64,000 nucleotides of DNA from Sphingomonas changnyeongensis (GTDB lineage Bacteria; Pseudomonadota; Alphaproteobacteria; Sphingomonadales; Sphingomonadaceae): positions 1,496,501 to 1,560,500 of the forward strand of contig NZ_CP047895.1 in the NCBI RefSeq assembly GCF_009913435.1, written 5' to 3'. The notes beneath the pieces were generated by a model that did no database searches, was not told the DNA's origin, and worked only from the letters and a program-made list of their open reading frames with translations. Made by a program: the position numbers and the translations under genes. The first letter of the stretch is position 1. Each line of letters starts with the position of its first letter. This document shows, one piece after another, positions 1 through 61,631 of this stretch.

Positions 1-3000
1 GAGCAGCAGGCAGCTGCGGCGGCCGGAGCTTTGCGCGATCAGACCGGCGGTGCCGCTACCGCGATCGGCCAAGCGGGTGCCGCTGCTGACGGCATGGCGG
101 CCGCCAGCCGAGCTGCGGCTGCGGCCGCGACTGGGCTGGCCGCGGCGCAAGGGCGGGTCGGCGACGCAGGCAGGGCCGCTGTAGCCACCGCCGGCCAGCA
201 GCGTGCGGCTTACGCGCAGCTGGGCCTGCAGGTGCAGGACGTTTTTGCATCGCTGTCGACCGGGACCAGCGTCTTTGCGATCCTTGCGCAGCAGGGTGGG
301 CAGGTCGCTGGTGCCTTGACCGGGCTCGGCGGTGTGGTGGGTCTGTCGCCACTTTCTTCTCAGGGCCGCTGGGTGCAGCTCTGCTCGGCTCGGTCAGCGT
401 AGCCGGCCTGCTTGCCACAACGCTGTTTCGGACCGCCGACGCAGCAAAATCGCTGCAGCGCGAGCAGGTCGCCCTTGCATCGATCGTCGATCAGACGACT
501 GGTCAGCTGCGCCGCCAGATCTCGGTCGTGCAGGCGCTTGCCTTGGCAGATCAGCGCGCGGCGACCTTTGCGCGTCAACGGGCCGATTTTTCCCAACGCC
601 GGACCGCGCTGATCGCGGCCGGCCTCGAGGCCGGCCAGCAGCGAACTTCTGGCGGTGAGCGCGGCTTTGGGATCGCCATCCCCGGTCAGGCGTCGGCGAG
701 CGCCCGAGAGGTCGCCAAGCTGGCCGCCGCCTATAGCCAGGGAGCCATCAACGCCGAGCAGCTGAGCCGGCAGGTGGATCGTATCGCGTCGACCGACCCC
801 AAAATTCAGGGGCTCGCAACCCGGATCAGGCAGCTGGCGGCGTCCACGATCGAAAGTGCGCGCGCAGCAGAAGGCACGCGGCTCGAGATCGCGCAAATCG
901 CCGTCGCGGCAGGGTCGGCAACGGCGGCGCAGAAGCGGCTCGTGGAGGCGCGCCGCGAACAGGAGCCGGTCAATGTTTCATTGATCGAGGCCGAGGCCGC
1001 CCTCGCAGCATCCACCGATCGTGTCTCGCGTGCACGCGAGCAGCTGCGGATCGTGGAGCTTCGCGGGCGGGACGCAGCCAAGGCGGGTGGCGCGGCCGCC
1101 GATGAGTATAGAGCCAATCTCCTCGAAGCGCGCCGCGAGGTAAATGCCGCAGAGGCGGCCGAGGCCCGTGCTGCTCAGGCGCGTCGCATCACCACGATAG
1201 CGACCCGTCAGGCCGCCCAAGCTCAACGCGAACTGGAAACTGCGTTGGTCGGCCTCGAGCGTCGGTTTGATGGCGTGGCGGCGGCGAACCGCGAATACAG
1301 CGAGACCATCGCCGATATCGAACGCCTCAAGAGAACAGGATCGATCAGCGACGACGAAGCTTTTGCGTTGCGTGTAGATGCCGGTGCGCGAAATGCCGAG
1401 CAGGTCAACCAGGCACGTGAGCAGCAAAGGCGGGCGCGGTTAGGCGAGGCGGGACGAGCCATCGTTGAGGGTGCTGATAAGCCTCTCGCCGATCTTGCCG
1501 ATAACGTCACTGCCCGGATGGAGGATGCTGGCCGCGCTGGTGGAGAGGCTTTTCGCGACGCCGGCCTGGATGCCGCTCAGGCAATCTCGCAGGTGTTTGG
1601 CGGGCGTCTTGGGCGGTCGGTCTCTGCCTTGCTCGGGCTCATTCAGGGCCGCAACACCGGCAGCTTCACCAGTGTTGGCGGTCGCGCGGGCGGCGTGCTG
1701 CAGCTGCTGGCCGGTGGCTCGCCATCGGCGGGCGGTGCAGCGCGGCGCACCCAGGATGATACCATTGAGGCTCTCGGCAAAGAGGTCGCGCGGTCGACTG
1801 TCAAGGCGCGATCAAAGGGCGGTTTCGGTGCCGGGGTGGATGAAACGCTCGGAGGCTTCACGCGCGACATAAAATCGATCTTTGGTGAGACGGGGATTTT
1901 CTCGGGCGCGCTTGGGAAAACGCTGGGCAAGGCGTTCGGTGGTGCCACCATTGGCAGTCAGATCGGCAAGCCGGTCACGTCCGCACTGGGCATCAAGGGA
2001 TCTAGCACGGGAGCCCAGCTTGGCGGCGCGGTCGGCGCGTTTCTGCCGATCCCGGGCGGCGAAATCATTGGCTCGATCCTTGGGTCGGTGGTGGGCGGCG
2101 CGCTTAAGCCCACCCGCCGGGCCTCGGCGACCATCGGCCTCGGGGCAGATGGGCTGGAGGTGTCGTCCGTCACGGGCAACAGCCAGCAGCGGCGTGTCGC
2201 CTCGTCGGCAGCTGCCGACAGCGTAATCGGGTCGCTGCAGCGGATCGCCGAGCAGTTTGGCGGCTCGATCACTGGCACGCCGAGCGTGTCTATCGGCGTG
2301 CGCGACAATTCTTTCCGCGTCGATCCGACGGGCCGGGGCATCACCAAGACACGGCGCGGGGCGGTCGACTTCGGGGAGGATCAGGCCGGCGCGATCGCGT
2401 TTGCAACCGCCGATGCGATCAAGGACGGCGTCATCACCGGCATTTCGCCGGCCGTTGCAAAGGCATTGCAGTCCTCGAGCGATCTGGACAAAGCGGTCCG
2501 CGAAGCCCTGAAGGTCGATGAGATCGAGGTGCTGCTGGGCGGCATTGATGCTGCGGTCAACCGGACGTTCCGCGATCTCGAGCGTCAGATCGTGGAGCGC
2601 AATCGCATTGCCGCCAAATATGGGTTTGACCTGGTCAAGCTCGAGGAGCGGAACGCGAAGGACCGTCAAGACGCGCTCGAGCGCGTCCTGGCTGACCGCG
2701 TGGGATCGCTACAGACGCTCCTGCGCGATCTCACCACTGGCGATCTGGCCGAGGGCACGCTTGCAGAGCGTCGCACAAGGCTGCTCGGTGATATTGCGAC
2801 GGCGGAAGCCGATGCAGCAGCTGGCCGGGATGGTGCTGCCCAGCAGGTGGCCGAGCTCCGCCGCAGGCTGATCGAGGTCAGTCGTGAGGCGTTTGGCACT
2901 GCCGGGAGCGAGTTCGCCGCCGACCTGTCGTCCAGCCGTGCGTCGGCCCAGCGGATCATCGATGCCGAGAACCGCCGCGTCCGCGAACAGGCTGATCTCG

Positions 3001-3173
3001 CACGGGCCACGAATGACAAGCTCGATCGCGCCAACGGCCTTGCCAACGAGGGCAACGAACTGCTGATCGAGATCAGCGGCCAGCTGGGGCAGATGGTTGA
3101 CCAGCTGGCGGTGCTGCCAGGCCTGGTCTCGGGCGGGTTTGAACGCTCGACCGGTCGACAGGTGCAGCTGTGA
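1..3173 (+). CDS. Phage tail tape-measure protein, 5'-partial, with one frameshift
   Basis: Tape-measure proteins fill the tail tube and set tail length. The frame is open from base 1, so the true start lies outside the window. The N-terminal part carries the block QLGLQVQDVFASLSTG (from about base 217), typical of tape-measure proteins. It is followed by long Ala/Arg/Glu/Gln-rich helical stretches and a Gly-rich hydrophobic part (about 1900-2130). The frame changes at the G run 339-341: one extra G would join GGVVG to SVATFFSGPLGAALLG without a gap. Downstream the frame is open to the stop at 3171-3173, which overlaps the next start (GTGA). The break matches the many other one-base G losses in this window, so it is probably a sequencing error. 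Identity is fairly certain; the exact phage family is not. Confidence 0.8.
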
Positions 3174-6100
3174 CGGTCCGGACGCTGGTCGATGCGTCGC
3201 CGCGCGATCCGGCCACAGGCGCGCTGACGCCCGTTTTTCTTGGCGGCGGCGGACGTTCGCCGCTCCATCACAACGGCCGTCATTACCGCGCTGGCATTCT
3301 TGCGGTGCCGGTCTTGGCTGCGTCCATCCAGTGGGATGATCGCGGCTGGACCGGCGGCTCGATACCGACCAGCGGGTCGATTATCTTTGCTCCCGCAGAC
3401 AGGCAGCTACTCGACGCGTTGGGCCGGCTGTTCTGGCGCGGCGCAGACCTCGTGATCAGCGTCGGGCCTGACGCCGGGCCGTTCGTGCGCTACCTGACAG
3501 GCACATGCGCATCGGCGCGCGTCGCAGGCCCCAGGCTGATCATCGAGGCTGCCGATCTCTCATCCGGCATTGACCGGCCGTTGGTCACCGCGCGCTTTGC
3601 CGGGTCGGGCGGGCTGGAGGGCGTCGCCGAGGCGGCGGGGCGGCCGAAGCGGCGCAGCTGGGGGCGAGTATTCAATGTCGAGGGCCGCCTGCTGGACAAG
3701 GCCAACTCGATTTATGAGTTCGGCGATCCTGCGCGCCCGCTGCAGGATATCACCGTGGTGCGGGACAAGGGACGCGACGGCGCCCGTGCAGTCCTCCCTT
3801 GGCAGGGGTCCGCCGCAGCCACCTTCGCCGCGCTGCAGGCAGCCTCCGCGCCGGCAGGCGGTGCTCTCGTCGCGCCATCAATCGCCTGTGCCAAATGGTT
3901 TACCGTGCCGGTCGGCCCGGTGACCGCGGATCTGCTCGGCGAGGTGGGCAGCGGCTATGTCGAGCGTCCTGCGGCCATCGCCGAGCGGGTGCTGCAAGCG
4001 GTCGGCGGGCCAGCGATATCTGCGGCCGTCCGCGATGCAGCTGATCTTGCCCGGCCATATGCGGTTGGTCTGCATGTCGGCAGCGAAACCGAAACCGCCG
4101 CCCAGGTGATTGATCGGCTGCTGCTGGGCGTGTCCATGCTCTGGACCCTCGACGCTGCCGGCGCAGTGCGGATATCTCCCATCACCCTTGCCGCACCCAG
4201 CGAGGCCGTGCGGTCGGTGGATGTCACCCGGGACAGGCAGATGCTGCCCAGCCGCGTCCGCCGCGTCGGCTATCGGCGAAATGAGCGCCCGCATTCCGAC
4301 GGCGAGATTGCACTGGTGCTGACCGAGGGTGCTCAGGCGATCACCGCCCAGCTGACCCGGCCGGCGGCCACAGTCACTGCCGGCACCAACGGCGAGGTCG
4401 ATCTCGACGATCTGCCGGCGCTGGGTGGGCGGTTCGAGGTGCAGCTGGGTGGAGTCGCCGTATCGCCGGCTCCCACCTTTAGCGTTGTTGCCGATGCGGG
4501 CCTTGATGCGGTCATTGACGCGGCGGGCAATTATCGGGCGCGGGCCGCCGACCTGGACACCGGCACCGCGCGGTTCCGCGCCCTGTGGAACGGCCTGTCG
4601 TTCGACCGTGAATACAGCCTCAGCCGGGTGCGTCAGGGGCAGCCTGGCATCAGTCCCCCGCTCATCACCGTCTCGGGCACGCATGCCGAATTCCGATATG
4701 ACGGCGCGGGTGCTGCAAAGCCGCAGACCACGCGGCTGACCGCGCGGCGGCAGAACACCGCACTGCAGACGATCTGGCGTGTCTTGCGCGCCGATACCGG
4801 TGAACCGGTCAGCTTCTTTCAGACCGCCGCCGATATGGCGGCCAACGGCTGGGTCGATAGCGCGCCCAGCGATGATGAGGTGGTGCTCGGTCATGTGCGG
4901 TTCGGCTGGCTGTCGGACGCCTATGGCGCGGGTGGCGGCCTGGTTTACGAGGCATGGCTCAACGGCACGTCGATCGTGGACAGATGGTCGTTGGCCCGCG
5001 CGCTTGATGGCGCTGACGGCCTTGATGGTGCCAATGCCTACAATGTCACCCTCGACGGGCTTGCCCGAAACGGCGGCACATTCTCTTACACCGGCACCGG
5101 CGACGGAAATGCGATCAGCGTGGAGGTCGCGGCTCAGGGCCGTGCCTCGGCAGTGGTCGGCCCGGTGCTCGGGACGTTTGGCATCGGGCTGCGCGACCCG
5201 GGCAGCGGGACGATCTATGAGCTTATCCGCTCGCCTGCCGCTTTCTGGGGCAACGGGACGACGATCTGGCGCCACTGGTCTGGCGTGGTCGCGGTTTCGA
5301 CCGGCGTGGCGACGGCTCCCGGGCTTCTCCTCGAAGTCGCCCATGTCGGCACCGAGATGCGAGGCTACATTAATGGGGCCGACATTGGGACGCCGATCGC
5401 CACCGGGATCCCGGCAGATCGGGCGCACCAGCTCTGGGTGCGAGCGGCGGGCGCGGCTGGGCAGCGGCTGGACAGCGTCTCGTTCAGCCGATCCGGTGCC
5501 CCTGGTGCTGCCGGTCAGGACGGCCGCTCGATCACCCCGGCGGCGACCACTATCACGCTGAGCGCCGATTATCTGGGCACGATCAAGCCGGGGCAGCTGC
5601 CGCGCGCTATCCAGTTTGCTTGCTTTGCCGGTGGAGCCGACGTCACGGGACAAACGTCCTGGGCAGTGGAGAGTGTCTCGGCTGACGGCTCGGCGGCCAG
5701 CATCTCGGCCGGCGGGCTGCTGACTGTGTCGGCGCTCGCCAGCACGTCATCGCTGATCGTCGTGCGTGCCATCTATCAGGGCACGGTGCTCCGCGCGCGG
5801 GTGGGGGCGCTGTCGTGCTTGATCCCGCGCCGCCAGCGACCGCGACCAACTTGTCGGTCACCGTGCCGTCTCCTGGCGATGAGTCGACATTCCCGCCCGG
5901 CCCGGACGCGGCTGTCACCGTGTCGGCGAGCCCCGGCGGACAGATCCGTGCTGATATGGGCGCGAGCTATTTTGTGGGTGGTAACGCACCGTTCCCGCAG
6001 ACATTGAGTTGGACCGCCATTGCGAAGCTCGCATATAGGCTGGCCGGCAGCGGCGGGGCGTGGATCGACATCGGCGTCCAGGAGGTCGGCAGCACCGCGC

Positions 6101-6276
6101 AGCGCGGCTGGCTCGCCCCGGGCGAGCCCGAGAGCAACTCGGGCGGCATCAATATCAGCCGGACCCAAGGCGGACTGACCGCCGGCGCGGCCTATGAGGT
6201 CGGCGTCTTCGTGCGCGCCAGCGCCAGCGGGCCGGTCAGCGGGTGGCAGGGCACCATGAGGGCAGGCCATCCATGA
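3170..6276 (+). CDS. Large phage tail / host-contact protein, with one frameshift
   Basis: The GTG start overlaps the tape-measure stop (GTGA). About 1035 residues after frame repair. The N-terminal third resembles phage tail proteins of the baseplate/host-specificity type found just after tape-measure genes. The C-terminal third carries a short collagen-like stretch (GAPGAAGQDG, about base 5500) and beta-rich, Thr/Ser/Gly-rich sequence typical of tail-tip or fibre parts. The frame changes at the G run 5803-5807. With one more G the reading becomes RVGGAVVLDPAPPATATN and runs to the stop at 6274-6276. Without it the frame ends at 6007 in a Cys/Arg-rich tail that looks out of frame. A separate GTG-started gene at 5815 is possible but less likely. 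Tail function is inferred from position and composition. Confidence 0.65.
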
Positions 6277-6782
6277 TCGTAATGCGTCATCGCGCCAGCG
6301 GCGCTCTAGCCGTTGTGACGGGCCTCGGCGGCCATGGCGAGCCTGTGTGGGAGCAGATCGGCCCACTGCCAGCGTGGGTGCCCGCCGATCTGGCTATGGT
6401 CGCGGCCGATGGCACGATCACCGCCGATCTCGACGCGGCGCGCGCGCGGCGCTGGGCGGCGATCAAGGCCGAGCGGGAGCGGCGGCTGCGCGTTGCGCCG
6501 ACCAGCGGCGGGCCGCTCGATGTTGATGAGACCGGGCGGTCGAACATCTTGGGCATGATGCAGGCGCTGGAATTGCTCGGCCCCGGCGTGGAAGAGCCGA
6601 TCGTCTGGAAACGGGCCGATAATGTGCTCGGCCATTACACGCGCCAGCAGTTCAAGTCGGTCGCTCTCGAAGCGCTGGCACATATACAGGCCGTTTATGC
6701 GGTCAGCTTTGCCCTTGAGGCTGCAATCAACGCCGCAACCAGCCTCACGGAAATCGAGGAGGTGGCATGGCCCGACGCCTGA
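6273..6782 (+). CDS. DUF4376-like phage tail protein (possible fibre-assembly protein)
   Basis: 169 residues. The ATG at 6273 overlaps the upstream stop (ATGA), which decides this start over one further upstream. The second half contains AAIKAERERRL followed by a long helical segment ending in a run of alanines, the pattern of DUF4376 domains found in tail-fibre-associated proteins. It sits in a tightly overlapping tail operon, so it should be translated with the tail protein. The family name rests on recognising the pattern, not on a search; a plain phage hypothetical protein is the alternative. Confidence 0.6.
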   Translation: MIVMRHRASGALAVVTGLGGHGEPVWEQIGPLPAWVPADLAMVAADGTITADLDAARARRWAAIKAERERRLRVAPTSGGPLDVDETGRSNILGMMQALELLGPGVEEPIVWKRADNVLGHYTRQQFKSVALEALAHIQAVYAVSFALEAAINAATSLTEIEEVAWPDA

Positions 6783-7027
6783 AAGCTCTGATGATCGAAG
6801 TCGGCGCGGCTCTGTCGCAGCTGCTGCACCTCGTGCTCGGCGGGATGCTGCATGTCGTCGATGACGACATGCCCATGCCAGATCGTGACGAAACTCTGTC
6901 CAGCCGCGTCGGCCGCGCGGCGATCGCGGGCGAGCGCTGGGCGCTGATCGCTGAGCGCGTGATCGACGGCCTGTTCCTGTTGCTCGGCGATGCGCCGGGC
7001 CATTGCCGCAGGAGTATCGGCAAGTGA
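6767..7027 (+). CDS. Small prophage protein, unknown function
   Basis: 86 residues. The ATG lies inside the end of the preceding gene with an upstream GAGGTGG, and the stop overlaps the next start (GTGA at 7024-7027). The N-terminal half is hydrophobic (ALSQLLHLVLGGMLHVV) and the middle is acidic. I do not recognise a family. Its overlaps on both sides argue that it is a real member of the tail operon. The hydrophobic segment could be a membrane or packing helix. Confidence 0.6.
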   Translation: MARRLKALMIEVGAALSQLLHLVLGGMLHVVDDDMPMPDRDETLSSRVGRAAIAGERWALIAERVIDGLFLLLGDAPGHCRRSIGK

Positions 7028-7386
7028 GTGCTGTCGATGCGGGTTTTGCCGAGTATCTCAAGTCGCGCGCGCTGTTCGCCGATCGTCCGTCAGCCAACGT
7101 CACCGGATGGGGCCTGCGCGATACAACCGAGAGTGAAATCCTCTCTCCGATCGCTCTGGCAGCAGACGCTCAAACGGAGGCAGATCGTCAGCTGCAAGTC
7201 CTCGGCAAGCCGCTGGCAATCGACATTCATGTGGTGCCGGGCCGGCGGGTCGATCTGTTTGGCCGGTGCATCACCGTTTCCGCCGGCCGGCTGGGATATC
7301 AGGCAGGGCAGCCGGTTTTCGTGATCGGTGTCGAGCCGGCCGATGATGGCGCAACAACCCGCCTGACGGTGGTGCGCGCCCTATGA
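7024..7386 (+). CDS. Prophage hypothetical protein
   Basis: 120 residues from a GTG that overlaps the upstream TGA (GTGA). An in-frame ATG at 7003 lies inside the previous gene and is less likely. The second half is beta-rich (IDIHVVPGRRVDLFGRCITV ... GYQAGQPVFVIGVEP), suggesting a small all-beta tail or capsid-accessory domain. The stop overlaps the next ATG. No family recognised; a tail-tip accessory role is inferred from its place among tail genes. Confidence 0.6.
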   Translation: MSAVDAGFAEYLKSRALFADRPSANVTGWGLRDTTESEILSPIALAADAQTEADRQLQVLGKPLAIDIHVVPGRRVDLFGRCITVSAGRLGYQAGQPVFVIGVEPADDGATTRLTVVRAL

Positions 7387-8101
7387 TGATCCTGTCCCCA
7401 GAGCCTATCGCGGCGATCACGTCGGGAGCCGAAAATCTGCTCACCGCCAGCCCGAAAGAGGTTTGGTTGGCCGGCGGCGCAAATCCTGTCATCGATATCG
7501 ACCTCGGGGCCGATCGGGCGGTCGATACGGTGTTTCTCGGCTTCACCTCGGCCGGGCCGGCCGTGCAGTGGCGGATCATCGCCGGTGCCGGAGGGGCTGG
7601 CCCAGAATTGCAGCCGCAGCAGCTGGCGACGGCGGCCGATGCCATTTCCGGCCGGCCGCACATGTTGTCGCTGCTCGCTGCTCCGGTGATGGTGCGGCAC
7701 ATTCGGCTCCAGCTGACCGCGCCGGCCGGCCTCATGGCGGGGTGGTTATGGTCGGGCAGCGCTTCGTCGCGGGGCACGAGAGAGGGGCTGGCCGGCAGTT
7801 GCGCGATAGCAGCGTCAAGGAAGACCTGCCCGATGGCGGGTTCGCGATCGTCGAGGGGGTCGTGCGCGCGTCGTTGAAATGGCGTTTCGTCGGGCTTTCA
7901 GACGCCTCCCGTCGTCGCCTCTGGGCGCTGGCTTACCGGCGGGGCGAGACCAGGCCTGTGCTGGTGATTGAGGAGCCGGACAGCGAAGCTGCCGGCGCCG
8001 ATGAACGCATTCACTACGGCTTGTTCGACCGGTTCGATGCCTATGAACGTGCCGACCCGAACGACAATGCGTGGGCGCTCTCGATGACGGAGTGGGTCTG
8101 A
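7383..8101 (+). CDS. Prophage minor tail-like protein, with one frameshift
   Basis: About 239 residues after repair. The ATG at 7383 overlaps the previous stop. The first two thirds (SPEPIAAITSGAENLLTASP onward) read in one frame. The last third (VKEDLPDGGFAIVEGVVRAS ... SMTEWV) reads in the -1 frame. One additional G in the run 7739-7742 gives LMAGVVMVGQRFVAGHERG and joins the two parts. The C-terminal half, with WALAYRRGETRPVLVIEEP, resembles phage proteins encoded near tail-fibre genes; I cannot name the family. The stop overlaps the next ATG (TGATG at 8099-8103). Confidence 0.6.
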
Positions 8102-8250
8102 TGGCGGAAGCCTATTCGTCGCGCGGGGCCTGGTATCTCGGCGACAAGGGAGTGCGGTGCGCTGCGCCATGCGACCCTGCAAACGGAAAGAGCGCAGCGG
8201 GGTGGCTCCCCGAGCGGGCTGGGATGCCTCGCCAAACAGCCTGCCATTGA
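8101..8250 (+). CDS. Small prophage ORF, 49 residues
   Basis: A 49-residue frame begins at an ATG overlapping the upstream stop (TGATG) and ends 11 bases before the endolysin start. It starts MAEAYSSRGAWYLGDKGVR and carries three cysteines (two in CAAPC), with a positively charged, glycine-rich body. The translational coupling and the good fit in the gap favour a real small gene. Function unknown. Confidence 0.45.
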   Translation: MAEAYSSRGAWYLGDKGVRCAAPCDPANGKSAAGWLPERAGMPRQTACH

Positions 8251-8261
8251 AGGGCTGATAT

Positions 8262-8810
8262 ATGACGAACGTCGACCGGCTGATTGATGAGCTTATCGGG
8301 CGCGAGGGCGGCTTCGTCGACGATCCGGCGGATCGGGGCGGGCCGACCCGATGGGGCATCACCGAGCAGGTGGCCCGGGCCTATGGCTACAACGGCGATA
8401 TGCGTCAGCTGGCGCGCGCGACGGCCGTGGAAATCTACCGCAAGCGCTATTGGTCAGGGCCTCGCTTCGATGAGGTGGCAACCATCTATCCTCGTGTCGC
8501 GGCAGAACTGCTCGACACCGGCGTAAACATGGGGCCGGTGGTTGCCGCCCGCATGCTTCAGCGCGGCCTGAACCTCCTCAACGACCAGGCGCGCGCCTAT
8601 CCCGACATCGGCGTTGACGGCGCGGTCGGTCCCATGACGATCGCGGCCCTGCGCCAGTATAAGGCTCGCCGGGGCGCCCGTGGCGAGGACGTGCTGATCA
8701 AGATCCTCGATGGCCTCCAGGTCAGCCGCTACGCGGAAATCACCGAAGCTCGGCCGGCCAACGAGCGCTTCTTTTTCGGCTGGATCGATCACCGGATCGG
8801 ACAGGCGTAA
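8262..8810 (+). CDS. Phage endolysin, GH108 N-acetylmuramidase with peptidoglycan-binding tail
   Basis: 182 residues. Residues 10-25 carry the GH108 signature GREGGFVDDPADRGGPT, with the catalytic glutamate in EGG, followed by RWGIT. The C-terminal half (DIGVDGAVGPMTIAALRQY ... ERFFFGWIDHR) is the PG_binding_3-like domain that usually accompanies GH108. The enzyme cuts the glycan backbone of peptidoglycan to release progeny. No signal peptide is seen, so export would need the holin candidate encoded directly downstream (stop and start overlap at 8808-8812). Family assignment is firm. Confidence 0.9.
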   Translation: MTNVDRLIDELIGREGGFVDDPADRGGPTRWGITEQVARAYGYNGDMRQLARATAVEIYRKRYWSGPRFDEVATIYPRVAAELLDTGVNMGPVVAARMLQRGLNLLNDQARAYPDIGVDGAVGPMTIAALRQYKARRGARGEDVLIKILDGLQVSRYAEITEARPANERFFFGWIDHRIGQA

Positions 8811-9115
8811 TGTTGCCCGAGGATCAAATCGATGCACCGCGCCGGGGCATCTTCGATCGCCTCATCACGAGGCTGTTTGAGCAGCCCGAGGTGGTCATCG
8901 CTTACACTCTGGTCGCGGCTTTCTGTGGCGCTTACTTCCGGCGCCCGACCGATCAGCTGGAGGGCGCGCTCATCGTGGCCTTCACCTCCGCGAGCGCCTT
9001 CTATCTCGGCACAACGGTCGGCGCGCAGCGCGCGGCGAGCCAGGTGGGCGAGGGGCTCGGCCTCACGCGAGCGGCCCTTCGGGGCATGGCTCGCGCCAAG
9101 GACGACAAGTCATGA
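8810..9115 (+). CDS. Putative holin (two-TM membrane protein)
   Basis: 101 residues; the ATG overlaps the endolysin stop. Two hydrophobic segments (about residues 28-43, VVIAYTLVAAFCGAYF, and 52-70, GALIVAFTSASAFYLGTT) are followed by a charged C-terminus ending in KDDKS. Size, topology and position directly after the muramidase are what is expected of a class II-like holin that releases endolysin to the periplasm. No holin family motif is recognised, so the call rests on context. Confidence 0.6.
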   Translation: MLPEDQIDAPRRGIFDRLITRLFEQPEVVIAYTLVAAFCGAYFRRPTDQLEGALIVAFTSASAFYLGTTVGAQRAASQVGEGLGLTRAALRGMARAKDDKS

Positions 9116-9462: not shown

Positions 9463-9531
9463 TGGCTTGGCGTCCTCAGGTGTCGGATCCCGTTCGGGCG
9501 TCATTGTCGTTTCTTTACAGGGGGTTGTAAC

Positions 9532-9771: not shown

Positions 9772-9819
9772 AATCGACGGGGCAGGCTGCAAGAAATCGC
9801 TGTCGCCGGGGAGTAAATC

Positions 9820-10020: not shown

Positions 10021-10046
10021 TTTTTTGGCGCGGATTTTTTGGCGCG
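10019..10046 (+). repeat. 14-bp tandem duplication GATTTTTTGGCGCG
   Basis: Two perfect adjacent copies of GATTTTTTGGCGCG, the first overlapping the TGA stop of the preceding gene. It lies 35 bases before the DUF2793 start. No hairpin precedes the T runs, so this is not a standard terminator. Confidence 0.7.
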
Positions 10047-10080
10047 CTACACTGAACACAGACAGCGAGGAGGAGATGCA

Positions 10081-15456: not shown

Positions 15457-15519
15457 TTGCCGGCGTGGGGCCGGATCCCTCCGGCCGTGATGCGGTGGCC
15501 CCGGCAGGGGCCGCCGGTC

Positions 15520-16958
15520 TCAGACCGTGAAGCCGACCGACAGGAACGAAGGAACGGGGCCGTTCCAGCCCTCGTCCGGCTGCGCCGCCTGCACATTGCC
15601 GGCACGGCGCGGGCGTTCGGCCTGATGCGGTGTCGCGGTGCGCGGTGCATCGGCTGGCCGCTCACGGGGCGGTGCGGCCGGTTCGCGCCGGGCCTGTTCA
15701 CGCCGGGCCTGTTCACGCGGGGCGGGCGCGGTGGTGGGCTGCGCCTCGACCGGCTTGCGGCCGCCGCGCCGCGCACGGGCGGGCGGGGGGCGGGCGATCC
15801 AGCCTCGTCGTCCCCGGCATCGCGCGCCGGGGCAGCGGCCGTGCCGCCGGCCTTGATCCGCGCAATCTTCTGGCCGGTCAGCTTTTCGATGTTGGCGACC
15901 GCTTCGCCATCCTCGGTGGTGACGAGCGTGAAGGCCTTGCCGGTCGCGCCCGCGCGGCCGGTGCGGCCGATGCGGTGCACATAGTCATCGGCGTGCCAGG
16001 GCACATCGAAGTTGAACACATGGCTGACGCCCTTGATGTCGAGGCCGCGCGCCGCGACGTCGGAGGCGACGAGGATGTTGATCTCCCCGGCCTTGAACCG
16101 GTCAAGCTCGCGCAGCCGCTCGGGCTGTTCCATGTCGCCGTGGATCTGGCCGACCGCAAAGCCATAGCGCTTCAGGCTGGTCGCCAGTTCGCGCACCGTC
16201 GTCTTGCGGTTGGCAAAGATGATCGCGGTGTTGAGATCGTCAGCGCGCAGCAGGCGGCGCAGCGTCTCGCGCTTGTCCCGGCTGGCGGTTTCGACCAGCT
16301 GCTGTTCGATCAGCGCATTGGCGCTGGCCGGGCGCGCGACCTCGATCGACTTGGGGTTGGTCAGAAACTTGTCCGCCAGCTTCTTGATCGGCGGCGGCAT
16401 GGTGGCCGAAAACAGCAATGTCTGGCGCGTCTTGGGCAGTTTGGAACAGATTTCCTCGATATCGGGCACAAAGCCCATGTCGAGCATCCGGTCCGCCTCG
16501 TCGATCACCAGCAGCTCGCAGCCCGTCAACAGGATGTTGCCGCGCTGGAACAGGTCCATCAGCCGGCCGGGCGTCGCGATCAGCACGTCGACGCCCTTTT
16601 CCAGCGCCTTTTGCTGGTCGCCCATCGACACGCCGCCGATCAGCAGCGCCATCGAAAGCTTGTGATATTTGCCGTATTTGTCGAAGTTTTCGGCAACCTG
16701 AGCGGCCAGTTCGCGGGTCGGTTCGAGGATCAGCGAGCGCGGCATCCGCGCCCGGCTGCGGCCCTGGGCGAGAACGTCGATCATGGGCAGCACGAAGCTT
16801 GCCGTCTTGCCGGTGCCGGTCTGGGCGATGCCGATCAGGTCGCGGCCCATCAGGACCGACGGAATGGCCTGGCGCTGGATCGGCGTCGGGTCGTTGTAAC
16901 CGGAATCGCCGACAGCCTTCAAAAGCTCGTCGGACAGGCCGAGATCGGCAAAGCTCAT
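15520..16958 (-). CDS. DEAD-box RNA helicase, with a frameshift in the C-terminal tail
   Basis: About 479 residues after repair. It carries the Q motif (PTPIQRQAIP), Walker A (AQTGTGKT), PTRELA, TPGR, DEAD (VIDEADRMLDMGF), SAT, ARGLDI and HRIGRTGR. It unwinds structured RNA, as in ribosome assembly or mRNA decay. The helicase core is intact. The basic C-terminal tail breaks at the C run opposite 15785-15790. One more C gives PAPPPARARRGGRKPVEAQP and a tail rich in Arg/Pro/Gln ending PSFLSVGFTV, with its stop at 15520-15522. In the sequence as given the frame instead runs into tgt. Start MSFADLGL at 16958 is the family start. Confidence 0.9.
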
Positions 16959-33407: not shown

Positions 33408-34341
33408 CGCCGCGCGTAATGGTCGAGCCGGCGCAAAAAGGCGAGGGGTCCTTGCGCGTCACCAGCGCGTCGGCGGGCGTGTTCAGCCAGTCCCACGCCC
33501 GGGTGAGTAGAAAGCGCAGGCACGCCCCGCGCGCCAGCACCGGCAGCGCCGCCTCCTCGCGCGCGGTCAGCCCATGGGCAGCGGCATAGCCGGCGCGCAG
33601 CGCCGCATCGATCGCCGGATCGAACACGGTGCCATCGGCGCTGAAGCACCAGGCGGTCAGCGTCACCGCCAGATCCCAGGCGCGGATTTCGGTACAGGAG
33701 AAATAGAAATCGATGATGCCGGTCACGCGGTCACCCAGCATCAGCACATTGTCGGGAAACAGATCGGCATGGACGACGGCCTGGGGCAGGTCGGTCGGCC
33801 AGTGCGCGTCGAGAAAGGCGAGCTCGTCCGCCACCCGCGCGCCCAGACCGTCGGCGATCGCATCGAGCTGGCAGCCGCAGCGCGCGGCGAGCGCATGCCA
33901 TCCGGCAAGGCCGAGCGTGTTCGGGCGTTCCAGCGCAAAGCCCGCCAGCGCCCGGTGCATATCGCCCAGCGCCGCGCCTGCCGCCCCCGCCTGCGCCGCT
34001 GTCGGCTGCGCCAGCGAGACGCCGGGCAGGAATTCTATCAGGCAGGCCGGGCGGCCGGCGACCGTCTGGATCTGCGTGCCCGCCCGGTCGCGGATCGCGC
34101 GCGGCACCGGGCAGCCGGCGGCGGCGAGATGATCGGTCAGCGCGAGGAAAAAGGGCAGGTCGGCGGCATCGACGCGCTTTTCATACAGCGTCAGGATGAA
34201 GCGCCCCGCCGTCGTTTCGACCAGATAATTGGAGTTTTCCACCCCCTCGGCAATGCCCTTGGCCGAGATCAGCGTGCCGGCGTCATAGCCGGCGAGCAGT
34301 GCCGCCATCGCCTCGGCGGAAACCTGGGTATAGACAGCCAT
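33404..34341 (-). CDS. thrB: Homoserine kinase, with a frameshift near the C-terminus
   Basis: About 312 residues after repair. A choline-kinase-like fold homoserine kinase: [34 protein letters not shown] (catalytic Asp/Asn) and IIDFYFSC. It phosphorylates homoserine in threonine synthesis. The frame breaks in the C run opposite 33445-33448: KDP is followed by SPFCAG instead of [13 protein letters not shown]. One more C restores the family's C-terminus and a stop that overlaps the rnhA start exactly. As given, the frame would run through rnhA. A sequencing error is far likelier than a real mutation. Confidence 0.92.
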
Positions 34342-34465: not shown

Positions 34466-37400
34466 ATGCGGGATAGACTGGGGCGCTGCTGGGCAGAGCC
34501 GGCACTGGGCGCGCTGGCGGTGGCGCTGGCGGCTGCGCCGGCACTGGCCGCGCCGTCGGGCAAGGACGTCAAGTCGGACTTGACGCCTGCCAAGCCCGCC
34601 GACGCCAAGCCTGCCGATGCCAAGCCCGCCGAAGACGCCGGCGATCCCCGCTTCGCCGCGCTGTCGTGGCGCAATATCGGCCCCAATCGCGGCGGCCGCT
34701 CGATCTCGGCGGCGGGCAGCACCGCGCGCCCGAACGAATATTATTTCGCCGCGGTCGGCGGCGGCCTGTGGAAGACCCGTGACGGCGGCACCAGCTGGTC
34801 GAACGTCACCGATGGCAAGATCCCGACCGGGTCGGTGGGCGGCGTCGCGGTGTGCGAGGCCAATCCCGACATCGTCTATCTGACCACCGGCGAAACCCAG
34901 CTGCGCGGCAACATCCTGACCGGCAACGGCGTCTATAAATCGGCCGATGCCGGCAAGAGCTGGACGCATATCGGGCTGGCGGACGTGCAGAATTTCTCGC
35001 GCGTGCGCATCCATCCCAAGGATTGCGACACGGTGTTCGTCGGCGGCTTTGGCCGCTACGGGGTCGAGAATGCCGATCGCGGCGTCTACAAGACCAGCGA
35101 CGGCGGCAAGAGCTGGCGGCGCACACTCTACCGCGATCCGCGCAGCGGTGCGGTCGACATTTCGATCGATCCTGCCAATCCGCGCATCATGTTCGCCGCG
35201 CTGTGGGAGGCTTGGCGCAAGCCCTGGGGGATGAGCTCGGGCGGGCCGGGCAGCGGCCTGTTCCGCAGCGAGGATGGCGGCGAAAGCTGGACCGAGATCA
35301 CCCGCGCCCCCGGCCTGCCGCAGTCGGGCCTGATCGGCAAGATCGGGGTCAGCGTCTCCCCGGTCGATGGCCGCCGCGTCTATGCGATGGTCGAGCATGA
35401 ACAGGGCGGGGTGTTCGTGTCCGACGATGGCGGGCAGAGCTGGGCGCGCACCAATGACAGCCGCGATCTGCGCCAGCGTGCCTTTTACTATACCCGCATC
35501 GTCGCCGATCCGAAGGTGCGCGACCGGGTCTATGTGCTCAACGTCCAGTTCCACCGGTCGGACGATGGCGGCAAGACCTTTGCCAAGAAGATCAAGGTGC
35601 CGCATGGCGACAATCATGATCTGTGGATCGCCGCCGACGACAATCAGCGGATGATCCAGGCCAATGACGGCGGCGCCAATGTCAGCGTCAATGGCGGCGA
35701 CAGCTGGACTGCGCAGACCTATCCGACCGCGCAGATCTATCGCCTCGGGCTCAGCCATCACCAGCCGCCCTTTGCCTGTGGCGGGCAGCAGGACAACAGC
35801 ACCATCTGCGTTCCGGTGCGCGGCTGGCGGCACCGCGATGTGCTGGGCGGCTATGGTTTTGCCGCGGGCGGCGGCGAAAGCGGCTATGTCGCCAATGATC
35901 CGCGCAATCCCGACATTTTCTATGCCGGCAGCTATGGCGGCACGCTCGACCGGTTCGATGCCCGCACCGGGCAGAGCCGGGCGATCAATGTGTGGCCGGA
36001 CAATCCGATGGGCTATTCGGCCGGCGACCTGAAGGAACGGTTCCAATGGACCTTCCCGATCGTGTTCGACCCGCAGGATGCAAAGACGCTCTACGTCACC
36101 TCCCAGCATGTCTGGCGCAGCACCGATGAGGGGCAGAGCTGGCAGAAGATCAGCCCCGATCTGACCCGGGCCGACCCCGCGACGCTCGGCCCTTCGGGCG
36201 GGCCGATCACCCGCGACCAGACGGGCGTTGAAACCTATGCCACCGTCTTCGCGCTTGCCCCGTCGCGGCGCGAGGCGGATGCGATCTGGGCGGCGTCGGA
36301 TGACGGCCTCGTCCATGTCACGCGCGACAATGGCGGCAGCTGGCAGAACATCACGCCGCCGGGGCTGCCGCCGTTCATCAAGTTCACGACCATCGAGGAT
36401 TCGCCGCACCGGCCCGGCACCGCCTATCTGACCGGGCACCGCGTGCTGCTCGACGATCCCGCGCCCTATGTGCTCAAAACCACCGACCATGGCCGCAGCT
36501 GGACCCGCATCGATGCCGGCCTGCCTGCGGACGAAACCGCGCGCAGCATCCGCGAGGATCCGGTGCGCCCGGGGCTGCTCTACCTTGGCTCCGAACGCGG
36601 CGTCTGGGTGTCGTTCAACGACGGCAGGTCGTGGGACAAGCTGCAGCGCAACCTGCCTGCCGTGCAGGTGTCGGACCTGGGGTGGCGGGCGACGATCTGG
36701 TGATCGCCACCCATGGCCGGTCCTTCTGGGTGATGGAGCGTGTGAACGTGCTGCGCCAGCTCGGGGCGAAGGAGACGGCGGCGCGGCTGTTCGCGCCCGC
36801 CACCGCGCTGCGCGGCCTCGATAGCGGGGCGGCGATCGACTATTTCCTGCCCGCAACGCCTACCAGTCTGAAGATCGAGATCCATGACGCGGACGGGCGG
36901 CTGGTGCGCAGCCTTGACGGGGTGAAGCCCGATGCCAAGCCCAAGAGCGAAGGCGGTGACGATGACGAGGATGACGGCCCCAAGGGGCCGCCGCCCCCGA
37001 CGATGAAGCCGGGGCTGAACCGGTTCAGCTGGGACATGCGCCATCCGGGCTTTGTCGATTTCCCGAACATGATCCTGTGGACCAGCCGCAACCGTGGCGG
37101 GCCGCTGGCGCTGCCGGGGCGTTACCGGGTGACGCTGACCGTCGATGGCCGTCAGCAGAGCCAGATGCTCGACATCGGCGTCGATCCGCGCGTCACCGAT
37201 GCCACGCCGGACGCGCTGCGGGAGCGCTTTGCACTGGCCATGCAGGTGCGCGACCGGGTGAGCCAGGCGAACGAGGCGGTGCTCCTGATCCGCGGCATCA
37301 CCGATCAGGCGCGCGCGCGCGCGGCGACGGCCAGCGATCCGGGGCTCAAGGCGTCGCTCGATGGCCTGATCGCCGGGCTGCGCGCGGTCGAGGGGCGGAT

Positions 37401-39138: not shown

Positions 39139-40283
39139 TCAGACGCAGGCGGTAGCGAGGCGTTCGGGGTGATCGCGGCCGGTGGCGCGCCGGCCTCGGT
39201 CAGCCCTTCGGGCCAGGCGGTGCCGGTGATCAGCGCCGCGCTGATCTGCGCCATGGCGGGCGCGGTCTGCAGGCCATAGCCGCCCTGACCGGCCAGCCAG
39301 AAAAAGCCCGGCGCATCGGTTGCCCAGCCGGCCACCGGCACACGGTCGGCGGTGAAGGTGCGCAGCCCCGCCCATTTGTGGGTGATGCGGCGCACGTCCA
39401 GACGGGTGATCGCCATCACCCGGTCGGCGGCGATCGCCATGTCGATCTCCTCGGGCTGGGCATCGCCCGGCTGGTCGGGATGCTCGTCGACCGGCGAGGC
39501 GAGCAGCCGCCCGCCATCGGGGAGGAAATAGACATGGTCGGTCGCCGTCTTCACGAACGGCCAGGCGCGCACATCCTGTCCGGGGGACGGATCGAAAGCG
39601 ATGACCGTGCGCCTGAGCGGCGACAGGCCGAGCGGTGCGACCCCGGCCAGCGCCGCCAGCCCGTCGGCCCAGGCCCCGGCGGCATTGATCAGCACCGGCG
39701 CGCTGCAGCGCTCGCCGGTGCCCGTCGTCACCTGCCAGTCGGTCCCGGTCCGGGCGATCGCTGCCACGCGTGCCCCGGTCACCACGCTGCCGCCATGTCG
39801 CCTGACTTGGCGGGCATAGCCGGTCAGCATCGCATGCGGGTCGAGCCGCAGCCCTTCATGATGGACAAAGCCATCGGTGATCGCGTCCGGCCCGAAGCGG
39901 AGCACGGGGCACAGCGCCGCCATGCCGGCGTCGTCCAGCCGTTCGACCTGGTCGGTCAGGCCGCGCGTGATCGCCTCCAGCCTGCCCAGCTCGTCGCGCA
40001 TTTCCGGCGTGGCGACGAACAGCGCCGGCGTCACCCGGCACAGCGCGTCGAACCCGTCGGGCGGGTCGAGGAAAAAGGCGCGGCTCCACGCGGTCATCCC
40101 GCGCACCGTCGCCCCGCCGATGCCGTAATGCGAAAATGTCACGCTGCGGCCCGAACTGTGCGTGCCGGTCGCCGCTTCCGCCTCGAGCACGACCGTGCGG
40201 CCATTGGGCGCGAGCGCGGCCGCCGCCGACAGGCCGGCGACACCGCCGCCGATGATCAGGAACTCCGCCGTGCTGCCGTCCAT
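39139..40283 (-). CDS. FAD-dependent oxidoreductase (DAO family), frameshift near the end
   Basis: About 381 residues after repair. Rossmann motif FLIIGGGVAGLSAAAALA, then EAEAATGTHSSGRSVTFSHY, and the C-terminal FAD contact FFWLAGQGGYGLQTAPAMAQ. It resembles glycine oxidase or D-arginine/D-amino-acid dehydrogenase; substrate unknown. The frame breaks in the C run opposite 39166-39169. One more C gives AAITPERLATACV and a stop at 39139-39141. As given, the frame runs through the rplJ leader and into the rplJ start. One more homopolymer case. Confidence 0.85.
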
Positions 40284-40395: not shown

Positions 40396-42464
40396 TTAGC
40401 CGGCGTCGCCCCCGCCGCCGACCAGCTGGTTGAGCCGGTCGCCGCCGACATGATCGTCGAAGCGCACGCCGATGCGCCGGTCGGCCGACCAGCGCACGGT
40501 CGCGCCCATCATGCCCATCCCGTGCAGCGCGATCCGCACCGGCGTTTCCTCCCAGCCGCCCGGCAGGCTCAGCCCCTCGACCAGCGCGCCGCCATCGGAA
40601 ATGTTGCGGATGATGACGTCGCTGGTGCGCCCGCCCAGCTCCATCCGCGCCCGGCGCAGCACCTTGTAGCGCATCGCCCGCGTCTTGAACCGGCTGACCA
40701 CCTGGGCGATGCCGCCATCGCGGTCGAGCTGCACCCGCACCTGATCGGGGTGAGCGGGACGCCGAATGCAAAGCCCTGGATGTGCGAGCAGCCAAGGCTG
40801 CGGATCAGGTCGATCTCGTCGAGCATCTCGACACCCTCGGCCGTGGTGTCCATGCCCAGCGCATTGGCCAGCGTGACGATCGCCTGGATGATCGCGGGAT
40901 TGCGCGATCCTTCGAGCGCCGCGCCGCGCACGAACGACTGGTCGATCTTGATCTTGTCGAACGGCGCCTTCTGCAGATAGCTCATCGACGAATAGCCGGT
41001 GCCGAAATCATCAAGCGCCAGCCGCACGCCCAGCTTTTTCAGCCGCGCGAACATCGCCGCGCTGCCGCTTTCATCGCCCAGAAACACGCTTTCGGTGATT
41101 TCCAGCTCCAGCCGGTCGCAGGCGATGCCCGAGCGGGCGATGGCGTTCATCACCAGAGCGGGCAGTTCGGGATTGGCGAACTGGATCGGTGAGACATTGA
41201 CCGCGATCCGCACATTGGCGGGCCACCCGGCCGCCGCCTCGGTCGCGCGCCGCAGCACCCATTCGCCGAGCGGCTCGATCAGCCCCGATTCCTCGGCGAT
41301 CGGAATGAACACGGCGGGCGAAATCGGCCCCAGTTCGGGATGGGTCCAGCGCAGCAGCGCTTCATAGCCGACGATGCGGCGGTCTTCGGTGCCGACAATC
41401 GGCTGATAGACGAGGTTGAGCTGGTTCTGCGTCAGCGCGTCACGCAGATCGTCTTCCAGCCTTTTGCGGTGGCGCGCCTCGGCCAGCATCTTGTCGGCGA
41501 AGAAACGGTGGACGCCGCGCCCGCCGGCCTTGGCGGCATAGAGCGCCAGATCGGCATTGCGCACCAGCGTTTCGGCATCGACGCCGTCGGCAGGCGCGAT
41601 CGCGATGCCGATCGAACAGCCGATCGTCACGCTGGTGTCGGCGATGTAATAGGGCTGGGACAGCGACTGGATGATCTCGTTGGCGAGCGCGCCGATCGCG
41701 TGCCGGTCGTCGGTGCCGGACATGACGATCTGAAATTCGTCCCCGCCCAGCCGGCCGACGACAGCGGTGTCGCGCACGCACTGCAGCAGCCGCGAGGCAA
41801 CCTGCTTCAGCAGCTCGTCGCCCGCCGGATGGCCGAGCGTGTCGTTGACCGCCTTGAACCGGTCGAGGTCCATCAGGAACAGGGTCGTCGGCCGGTAGGT
41901 GGCGGCCGACTGGCTGAGCTTTTGCTGCAGGACGAGCTGCATGCGCTGGCGGTTGGCGAGGCCGGTCAGCGCGTCGAACAGCGCCAGCCGGGTGATTTCC
42001 GCCTCCGCACGGCGTTTCTCGGTCAGGTCGCTGCCATGGCCGATAAAGCCGAGCGGATGGCCGAGCCGGTCGAGGATCGGCCGGCCCGAAATCGACCAGT
42101 GATGATCGGGCGACTGGGCGCTGCACACCGGCAGGTCGCTGAACGCGGTGCGCGACGACAGATGAAAGGCCAGCGTGCGGCCGCCCGCATCCTCCCCCTC
42201 GGCGGTTTCGAACAGCGCGGTCAGCGGCATGCCGATCACGCTGTCGCCCGGCGCGCACAACAGCCGCGCGACCTTGTCGGAGATGTAGCGCAGCCGGCCA
42301 TGCTCATCGGCTTCCCAGAACCAGCCGGCGCTCTGCTGCTCGAACTCGCGCACCAGCCGCTCGGCGAAATCGCCGCGCAGCCGCCCTTCCTCGTCCAGCG
42401 GGGCCTGGTTGCTGCCCGGCTGGCGCTTGCGCCCCGTCACGCGCTGGGATGAGGAAAAGAACAT
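40396..42464 (-). CDS. PAS-GGDEF-EAL-PilZ c-di-GMP protein, with one frameshift
   Basis: About 689 residues after repair. A PAS-like N-terminus (GWFWEADEHGRLRYIS ... GFIGHGSDLTEKRRAE), then GGDEF (FDALTGLANR, RLGGDEFQIV), then EAL (YEALLRW, NVSPIQF, LEITESV, LDDFGTGYSS, KIDQSFV, AEGVE), and a C-terminal PilZ-like domain (SRFKTRAMRYKVLRRARMEL ... IRNISDGGALVEG). Both catalytic motifs are intact. The frame breaks opposite the G run 40747-40750; one more base gives FGVPLTPDQVRVQLD and joins EAL to PilZ. Without it PilZ would be a separate 114-residue frame, but no ribosome binding site supports this. Confidence 0.88.
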
Positions 42465-54957: not shown

Positions 54958-57645
<2,688 letters not shown>

Positions 57646-57736: not shown

Positions 57737-57817
57737 TGCGCCTTGCGGCACCGGGGGGTGTTTGCGTTGCGCCTTGCGGCGCAGGGGGTGTTTGTGCTGC
57801 GCCTTGCGGCGCAGGGC
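57737..57817. repeat. Tandem array of a ~30-bp unit (TGCGCCTTGCGGC...)
   Basis: Three starts of the unit TGCGCCTTGCGGC at 57737, 57768 and 57798 (period 30-31); the third is cut off and runs into the palindromic repeat. Differences between units suggest some age. Confidence 0.65.
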
Positions 57818-57895
57818 GGCACCAGCCCGCACCCCCACCCGGCCTCCCACATGATACTGCCGTTGGGAGGCCGGGTGGGGGAGCGGGCCGGTGCC
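57818..57895. repeat. Palindromic intergenic repeat, copy 1
   Basis: Long inverted repeat with arms around CCCACCCGGCCTCCCA / TGGGAGGCCGGGTGGG and a 14-base loop containing CATGATACTGCCGT. Nearly identical to the copy at 59588. Confidence 0.85.
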
Positions 57896-57940
57896 GCGAT
57901 CCAAACTAAAGACTCCCGCCTTGGCGTAAACGATCCAGCC

Positions 57941-58762
57941 TTACAGATAGGGCTGGTCGAGGCCCTTCGGGCTTTTCGTGAAAATCTCGCAGCCGGTTTC
58001 GGTGATGCCGATCGAATGTTCGAACTGCGCCGACAGCGACCGGTCGCGCGTCACCGCCGTCCAGCCATCGTCGAGCAGCTTGGTGTCGGGCCGGCCGATA
58101 TTGATCATCGGCTCGATGGTGAAGAACATGCCCGGGCGCAGCTCCGGCCCGGTGCCGGGGCGGCCGACATGGACGACCTCGGGCGCGTCATGGAACAGCC
58201 GGCCCAGGCCATGGCCGCAGAAATCGCGCACCACGCCGTAACGATGCCCTTCGGCATGGCGCTGGATCGCGTGCGCGACATCGCCCAGCCGGTTGCCTGG
58301 CCGCGCCTGTTCGATGCCCAGCATCAGCGCCTCATAGGTCACGTCGACCAGCCGGCGCGCCTTGATCGGCACATCGCCGACCAAATACATGCGGCTGGTG
58401 TCGCCGTGCCAGCCATCCAGCAGCGGCGTCACATCGATGTTGACGATGTCGCCGTCCCTGAGCGTGCGGTCAGACGGGATGCCGTGGCACACGACATGGT
58501 TGATCGAGATGCAGCAGCTGTGCGCATAGCCGCGATAGCCGAGCGTGGCCGGCACCGCGCCGGCGCGCAGCATGTGCGCGCGGATCATGTCGTCAAGCGC
58601 CGCCGTCGTTACGCCGGGGACGACATGGGGGGTGATGTCGTCCAGAATCTCCGCGGCCAGCCGCCCGGCCCGGCGCATCCCCTCGAACCCGTCGGGGCCG
58701 TGCAGCCGGATGGCGTTGGTGCGGGCAAGGCTGGCGTCGCTGGCGTCGATATAGCTGGTCAT
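57941..58762 (-). CDS. map: Type I methionine aminopeptidase
   Basis: 273 residues from MTSYIDASDASL (ATG at 58762). Metal ligands: Asp in VNIDVTPLLDGWHGDTSRMY, His in CGHGLGRLFHDAP, Glu in FTIEPMINIG and Glu in SAQFEHSIGIT; substrate His in NHVVCHGIPS. It removes the initiator methionine. Divergent from the CinA-domain gene with a short shared promoter region. Confidence 0.96.
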   Translation of the reverse strand: MTSYIDASDASLARTNAIRLHGPDGFEGMRRAGRLAAEILDDITPHVVPGVTTAALDDMIRAHMLRAGAVPATLGYRGYAHSCCISINHVVCHGIPSDRTLRDGDIVNIDVTPLLDGWHGDTSRMYLVGDVPIKARRLVDVTYEALMLGIEQARPGNRLGDVAHAIQRHAEGHRYGVVRDFCGHGLGRLFHDAPEVVHVGRPGTGPELRPGMFFTIEPMINIGRPDTKLLDDGWTAVTRDRSLSAQFEHSIGITETGCEIFTKSPKGLDQPYL

Positions 58763-58820
58763 CGCCGCGATATAGTCGCGAACGCTTGTCAATCCAACGC
58801 CATTGGATGAAGGAGCGGCC

Positions 58821-59578
58821 ATGACCAGCGAACGCATCTGGACCGCCGGCCTCGTGATCATCGGCGATGAGATCCTGTCGGGCCGCACGCAGGACCGGAA
58901 CATCGCCCAGATCGCCCTGTGGCTGAACCTGCAGGGCATCCGCCTCGCCGAGGTCCGGGTGGTGGGCGACACCGAATCGGCGATCGTCGAGGCGGTGAAC
59001 GCGCTGCGCGCGCGCAACGACTATCTGTTCACCACCGGCGGCATCGGCCCCACGCATGACGACATCACCGTCGATGCGATCGCGGCGGCGGTGGGCGTGC
59101 CGGTGATCGTCCATCCGCGCGCCCGCGCGGTGCTTGAGGCCTATTATGCCAGCCGGGGCGGGCTGACCGAGGCGCGGCTGCGCATGGCGCGCGTGCCCGA
59201 GGGCGCGGACCTGATCGAAAACCGCATGTCGGGGCACCTGGCATACGCTGGGGCAATATCTTCATCATGGCCGGCGTGCCGCACATCACCGCGATGATGC
59301 TCGATGCGCTGTCGGGCACGCTCGAAGGCGGGCGGCCGCTCCTGTCGGCGACGCTTGGCTGCTGGGTCGCGGAAAGCGAGGTCGCCGACCTGCTCCGCCA
59401 GACCGAGGCCGCGCATGACGGCTGCCAGATCGGCTCCTATCCGTTTTTCCGCGAGGGGCGGGTGGGGGCGAACTTCGTCATCCGCTCGACCGATCAGGCG
59501 GCGCTCGACGCCTGCGCCGCCGATCTGGCCGCGCGGCTGGCCGAAACCGGGCGGGACAGCGTGGCCGGCGGGATCTGA
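58821..59578 (+). CDS. CinA-like molybdopterin-binding domain protein, with one frameshift
   Basis: About 252 residues after repair; the ATG at 58821 follows GAAGGAG by six bases. A MoCF_biosynth/CinA N-terminal domain: GLVIIGDEILSGRTQDRNI, DTESAIVEAVNALRARNDYL and FTTGGIGPTHDDITVDAIAA. The frame breaks at the G run 59231-59234; one more G gives MSGAPGIRWGNIFIMAGVPH and continues to GGI at 59578. It lacks the C-terminal nicotinamide-deamidase domain of full CinA. Probably a small-molecule-binding or pyrophosphatase-like protein. Confidence 0.85.
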
Positions 59579-59587
59579 GTTTCGCGC

Positions 59588-59664
59588 GGCACCGGCCCGC
59601 ACCCCCACCCGGCCTTCCACATGATACTGCCGTTGGGAGGCCGGGTGGGGTGCGGGCCGGGGCC
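59588..59664. repeat. Palindromic intergenic repeat, copy 2
   Basis: Same element as at 57818, differing at a few bases (one arm has TTCCA for TCCCA). Followed by an extra hairpin GTGCGGC-GCAA-GCCGCAC. Confidence 0.85.
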
Positions 59665-59751
59665 GCTCGTGCGGCGCAAGCCGCACCACAAACAACCCGG
59701 TGCCGTCCCCGCGCCGGGAGGCGCGCAAAAAACCAACGCCCTTCAGTCGCG

Positions 59752-60987: not shown

Positions 60988-61038
60988 GCCCCTGCCTAAC
61001 CCGGCTTGGCTGGCGTGGGGAAGGGCGGGCGAAGGGGG

Positions 61039-61604
61039 TCAGTTGGGCACCCCGATCTTCAGTATCCCGGTTTGCCCAGGATGTTGCGCCTTCGGGTTGT
61101 TACGCCAGCAGAATTTCACGCTGACGGGAATCTTCCACTTTCGGGCAATTCGGTCGATTTCCTTCCACGCGTCGGCAGCCGACTGACCTTGAACCGAGAT
61201 GCCGAGGTCAGTGTGATATTTGAAGCCCTCGGTCTCGTAGCGCTCGGCTCTCGCGGGAATTTGCAGCTGGCTTACCAGCCGCTCTCCTTCAAAGCCTTTT
61301 GCCTTCAAATGCGCGATCATTGTCAGGAGCAGGGACGACCAGCGCGGGCTCTGAATGGCTTCGCCATCTACCGAAGCCGCCAGCGGCTTGGTGAACGCAA
61401 GTCCGGGGGCGGAGGCAAACTGGATAACGCCTTCTGCCGTGGGGGGAGTTGAGACTTTGGTTGGTCGTCCCTCTCTATGCCGAGGCTTTCCATTGCCTCG
61501 TGGACGATGCGATCGATCGTTTCGCTGGGCGTCCTTGTGCCCAGCCAGGTTTTCAGCGTGCTCAGGCTCGCGAAAGTCGCGTCGTTCAATCTCACCACCG
61601 GCAT
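61039..61604 (-). CDS. Small regulator-like protein (RHH-like N-terminus), with one frameshift
   Basis: About 188 residues after repair. The N-terminus (MPVVRLNDATFASLSTLKTW ... DRIVHEAMESLG) looks like a ribbon-helix-helix or SeqA-type DNA-binding part: beta strand then two helices. The C-terminal 110 residues (SPRWSSLLLTMIAHLKAKGF ... VKFCWRNNPKAQHPGQTGIL) are conserved-looking but unknown to me. The frame breaks opposite the G run 61441-61446; one more base joins QLPP to TAEGVIQFASAP. GGGAGG lies before the ATG. Two identical palindromes lie upstream. Lower GC than its neighbours and close to a tRNA gene, so possibly acquired. Confidence 0.6.
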
Positions 61605-61631
61605 CGGTCAGCCTCCCGTCACTCGATGATG

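Follow-up and report, generated by a model that had tools for sequence, protein, structure and literature searches.

Twelve frame breaks at short G runs in a Sphingomonas changnyeongensis genome are very probably consensus errors

The window analysed here, a stretch of 64,000 nucleotides with a GC content of 68% (G000:C1:1496501-1560500), belongs to the 3.0-Mb genome of Sphingomonas changnyeongensis, which is represented by two contigs. At twelve short runs of G in the window, one base is missing in each case by comparison with intact relatives, and the genes that carry these runs appear split. We are highly confident that these breaks arose in the consensus of a long-read assembly, as an ordinary artefact, and that the genes are intact in the bacterium. 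This reading is based on the near-uniform losses at G/C runs, their dependence on run length, their spread across the genome, the loss rate in a dispersed palindrome, the splitting of core genes, and the unbroken state of the relatives tested. The finding has no biological significance; its significance is that of a data-quality flag on the genome record.

Frame breaks in the window

The nearest relative used as reference, Sphingomonas sp. UBA1000 (G003), covers most of the window in blocks at 85-97% DNA identity; the parts without a match include 15300-15842, 57765-59696 and 61026-62050. Gene models were taken from UBA1000, and 102 of its proteins were aligned, with frame changes allowed, to the window and to three other stretches of the genome (30,355 codons, about 91 kb of coding sequence), 54 of these genes being in the window. 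The twelve breaks are the following.

Break 1, 339..341, plus strand: phage-type tail length tape measure gene (1 to 3173), TMP_2 / phrog_24; one base short at residue 147 of 1090 against the continuous UBA1000 frame
Break 2, 5803..5807, plus strand: large phage-type gene within 3170-6276, phrog_8917 (unknown function); residue 743 of 898
Break 3, 7739..7742, plus strand: phage-type gene 7383-8101, phrog_8610 (unknown function); residue 119 of 239
Break 4, 15785..15790, minus strand: DEAD-box RNA helicase gene, Pfam DEAD and Helicase_C
Break 5, 33445..33448, minus strand: thrB (homoserine kinase), adjoining rnhA, TIGR00938; near the gene end, residue 300 of 312, with a TGA stop
Break 6, 36679..36682, plus strand: sortilin/BNR-repeat protein gene 34466-37680, PF15902; residue 721 of 1055
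Break 7, 39166..39169, minus strand: FAD-dependent (DAO) oxidoreductase gene, PF01266; near the end, residue 383 of 392, stop reached
Break 8, 40747..40750, minus strand: PAS-GGDEF-EAL gene with a C-terminal extension; residue 564 of 681, stop TAA
Break 9, 57068..57072, minus strand: PQQ-dependent dehydrogenase / cytochrome gene, PF01011; residue 190 of 689
Break 10, 57445..57448, minus strand: second run in the PQQ gene of break 9; residue 64 of 689
Break 11, 59231..59234, plus strand: MoCF-domain gene, PF00994; relatives are named competence/damage-inducible protein A
Break 12, 61441..61446, minus strand: small gene whose homologues match in two frames

All twelve runs were found where the initial annotation had placed them, and its account of a frame break at each, repaired by one added base, held throughout. 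Nine sites are spanned by UBA1000, and in all nine the window is one base short and the gene is a single continuous frame in the relative. The aligner placed these losses at 338, 5808, 7738, 33443, 36678, 39169, 40750, 57072 and 57449, in 8 of the 54 compared genes, and no other break was detected among those 54 genes in the parts matched by UBA1000. Two sites were established against close intact proteins. For break 4, the alignment spans the full length of the protein P0001 (481 aa) and reaches a TGA, with one base missing near 15778; the identity to P0001 is 97% in the best local alignment and 0.92 across all 481 residues. For break 11, the proteins P0121-P0123 (98-99% in the best local alignment) are continuous, and the window is one base short at 59230, followed by a TGA. 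Break 12 was established by searching the gene pieces apart, which located the frame change between 61398 and 61476; among the 120 relatives listed, two carry a SepA-family name (NCBI) and most are unnamed or hypothetical. At break 7, the loss of a C adjoining the run fits the UBA1000 alignment equally well, so the lost base is not fixed there. The sensible stops reported after repair were seen in thrB, in the DAO gene and in the gene of break 8, whose C-terminal extension had been labelled PilZ by the initial annotation, while the helicase reaches its TGA through the P0001 alignment.

A tail-type phage cluster at 1-10200, with genes for a tape measure, a tail protein and an endolysin-like protein, contains three of the twelve breaks and is present in UBA1000 at 89-93% in two main blocks. 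The positions of the breaks along the genes are scattered, ranging from 0.09 to 0.98. The break of the EAL-PilZ gene is absent from the 80 best related loci. All 80 extend across the site, UBA1000 is among them, and a single locus carries a loss at another position of the gene. A comparison with orthologues, proposed by the initial annotation as a check, showed that the breaks are not shared at the sites compared: the UBA1000 frames are continuous at all nine spanned sites, as are P0001 and P0121-P0123.

Losses by run length, in a palindrome and across the genome

Across the 102 genes, 15 one-base losses and one gain were counted, together with zero in-frame stops in the 30,355 codons. Nine of the losses are those of the window and six are in the other stretches, including one at L106:5370 that sits in a 13-base tandem-repeat difference. 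G/C runs of at least 4 hold 2.6% of the compared coding bases and 13 of the 15 losses; one further loss is at the GGG of break 1 and one is in a GGGGCC tandem repeat, and 14 of the 15 are at a G/C run of at least 3. The sole apparent gain is at L107:2199-2201, early in a gene of 505 aa (residue 9). One-base losses with rare gains at homopolymers are thus the pattern in these genes, as is characteristic of consensus error. When sorted by inferred true run length, with L106:5370 left out, the coding losses amount to 1/248 for G4, 9/51 for G5 and 3/4 for G6, and to 0/47 for C5, 0/10 for C6 and 1/1 for C7. This climb with run length is what is expected of homopolymer deletion errors. The A/T runs of at least 5 showed 0/29 errors, too few for a test (p 0.07).

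The genes with a break show no sign of relaxed constraint, the median identity to UBA1000 being 0.957 for both the 15 frame-changed genes and the 87 others. A second comparison is provided by a dispersed palindrome of about 82 bp with 34-bp arms and a 14-nt loop, which is REP-like in appearance and has a strong single-strand fold (z -8.5). In this genome it has at least 40 occurrences, 40 of 159 candidates having been scored, with window copies at 57816-57897 and 59586-59666, and 20 places were collected in UBA1000. One arm carries a C5 run and the other the complementary G5, and one window copy is itself unequal.

Palindrome copy, 59586..59666, no strand assigned, between genes: G-run arm one base shorter than the complementary C-run arm

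Among 41 copies of this genome, 39 were readable; the C5 run is intact in 39/39 and the G5 run is short in 4/39. In a wider scan of the sequence examined from this genome, the G5 arm was short in one additional copy and the C5 arm in none. In UBA1000, nine of the 20 copies were readable, and the counted runs are unequal in three of the nine, which by their letters are substitutions. The G5 loss rate does not differ between coding sequence and palindrome (p 0.57, with the palindrome entered as 5 of 41), which gives no sign of selection on reading frames; the similar rate and the equal constraint both indicate that the losses are blind to it. One unrelated inverted repeat, at L128:7951, has the shorter run in its C arm (C3 facing G4), which counts against consensus error as the cause, and the inverted-repeat scan of the controls gave three repeats with unequal arms.

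A codon-model detector with a junction filter was applied to 682.5 kb of the S. changnyeongensis genome and to 841 kb of controls. Off gene junctions, it made 51 loss-type calls in this genome vs 7 in the controls, and 19 gain-type calls vs 11; it recognises half of the known window sites (6 of 12), and its counts are therefore minimum values. In the previously unused stretches, the 41 loss calls comprise 21 at G, 11 at C, 3 ambiguous and 6 without a G/C run of at least 4. The 17 gain calls in these stretches, all outside the window, comprise 6 at G, 2 at C and 9 at neither, so the statement that every event is a loss, made for the window, is not extended to the whole genome. Among the genes affected, recA is split into pieces that match consecutive parts of one family model. 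Seven of 13 further pairs of pieces are likewise consecutive in one NCBIfam model, namely those of ubiB, mutM/fpg, tlyA, hflX, flhB, a metabolite/H+ symporter and a glycosyltransferase. The remaining six comprise two undecided pairs (a histidine kinase, and one that is CheW-like on both sides), two one-sided and two unmatched. The breaks of hflX and of the symporter were localised to intervals without a G/C run of at least 4, which likewise counts against consensus error. An LSU rRNA model, which found a match in one of six genomes and none in this one, was of no use as an independent test.

Strand of the runs and their state in the relative

Both strands had been described as hit. This is correct for the genes, five of the runs lying in plus-strand and seven in minus-strand genes; it is not correct for the runs themselves, all twelve of which are G on the plus strand (G:C 12:0) regardless of gene strand. 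In the previously unused stretches the excess is weaker (21 G to 11 C, p 0.11), and the G:C ratio in the window differs from that of the rest (p 0.02). Pooling with the verified sites and the palindromes gives 42:12 (p 5e-5), a pooling that was made post hoc and that excludes L106:5370, the ambiguous calls, the calls without a run and L128:7951. The excess of plus-strand G is unexpected under simple strand-symmetric under-calling; consensus error as such is not defined by symmetry. A bias of the replication strands was also considered and rejected, as the junction-filtered G:C ratio over 17 more stretches is 17:8 for a leading and 4:3 for a lagging plus strand (p 0.67), with the origin and terminus placed from sampled GC skew alone. 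If the bias follows the orientation of the contig and neither the gene strand nor the replichore, the consensus step would be its likely source.

The state of the runs in UBA1000 was compared at the nine spanned sites. At 33445 and 57445 the identical run is one base longer in the relative, at 40747 the run is two bases longer, and at 39166 the two runs match in length, an additional C lying alongside in the relative. At the remaining five sites, the stretch is broken by another base in UBA1000; these runs arose in the S. changnyeongensis lineage, through synonymous changes to the extent that the alignments show. Among the runs shared by the two genomes, nearly all are equal: 134 G4 runs are equal and 0 shorter, followed by 22 and 2 for G5, 145 and 1 for C4, 24 and 0 for C5, and 7 and 1 for C6. 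The broken runs are mostly not simply longer runs in UBA1000, and the equality of the shared runs counts against under-calling.

A systematic miscall of a motif was rejected, since the k-mer and substitution spectra over 106.9 kb aligned with UBA1000 show no strongly depleted motif. The same alignment shows a mild deficit of GGGGG (75 against 103) and of GGGGGC (38 against 64). Homopolymers one base shorter than in UBA1000 were also observed at four places taken as intergenic, 20671-20676, 22206, 23466-23469 and 55308, where C7 is reduced to C6, A8 to A7, T5 to T4 and C6 to C5. These shortenings could be due either to the same assembly error or to ordinary divergence.

Origin of the breaks

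The initial annotation attributed the breaks to under-calling of homopolymers. The one-base losses, their rise with run length, the palindrome and the relatives bear this out, whereas the plus-strand G excess and the predominance of equal runs in UBA1000 do not follow from it. In the mechanism that we propose, G runs of about 5 or more in the orientation of the contig, and less often C runs, would be called one base short, and these short-called runs would make intact genes look split. The sequencing platform would be a long-read one, and the consensus or polishing step may have produced the excess of plus-strand G.

The principal alternative is that the losses are real and very recent one-base slippage mutations, in a mutator lineage or in the course of mass gene decay. 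Slippage in runs is a normal route of mutation, and the split genes include mutM and recA; we nevertheless regard this explanation as very improbable. The breaks affect core genes such as thrB, recA and ubiB, G5 runs in genes and in palindromes lose bases at a similar rate, and none of the marks of decay (nonsense changes, mixed indels, relaxed constraint) was found in the 102 genes, given their zero in-frame stops, single gain and equal identities. Programmed frameshifting or transcriptional slippage, by which short runs that are real and functional would still yield whole proteins, can draw on the fact that such runs are slippery in principle and that tail genes are known to use frameshifts. 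Its probability is minimal, as the breaks are scattered along the genes and absent from the relatives tested, a similar loss occurs in the palindrome, and the stretch is interrupted at five of nine sites in UBA1000; conservation of the site in orthologues, which this explanation needs, was observed in 0 of the 80 EAL-PilZ loci and at none of the nine sites spanned by UBA1000, whose frames are continuous there. We give hardly any credence to a reading in which the short runs are real and heritable, the lineage loses one base from G runs preferentially on one strand, and transcriptional or translational slippage restores most of the broken genes.

Consensus error also agrees with published accounts of long-read assembly. 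In excerpts of PMC12007338, deletion errors in a nanopore assembly peak after four to five equal bases, and an excerpt of PMC9262707 states that homopolymer consensus indels often yield frameshifts in gene calling. One-base deletions at short homopolymers, with frames broken, are thus common to the present case and to the errors described in the excerpts of PMC9262707, PMC12007338 and PMC11232133. The base composition differs: in a genome of 59% GC (Kastor, PMC12007338), errors were more numerous at A/T runs and about half as frequent at G/C runs, and the errors in the part of PMC11232133 consulted lean to A/T, whereas here they are at G/C runs, in a window of 68% GC. An excess of plus-strand G is present here and is unmentioned for long-read errors in the excerpts of these three papers. 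A narrow search returned no paper on strand bias with deletions at G homopolymers in nanopore consensus, which is not evidence of absence.

If consensus error is the cause, the rate of 15 losses per 91 kb of coding sequence would, by extrapolation, correspond to several hundred genes wrongly split in the record, despite its stated completeness of 99.35%, and claims on gene loss, pseudogenes or the proteome made from this record would be wrong. The comparison of the two arms of the dispersed palindrome provides a simple check for such errors that requires no reference. A second short dispersed repeat, with many matches in UBA1000, was observed at L107:17320-17430 and L108:16828-16878.
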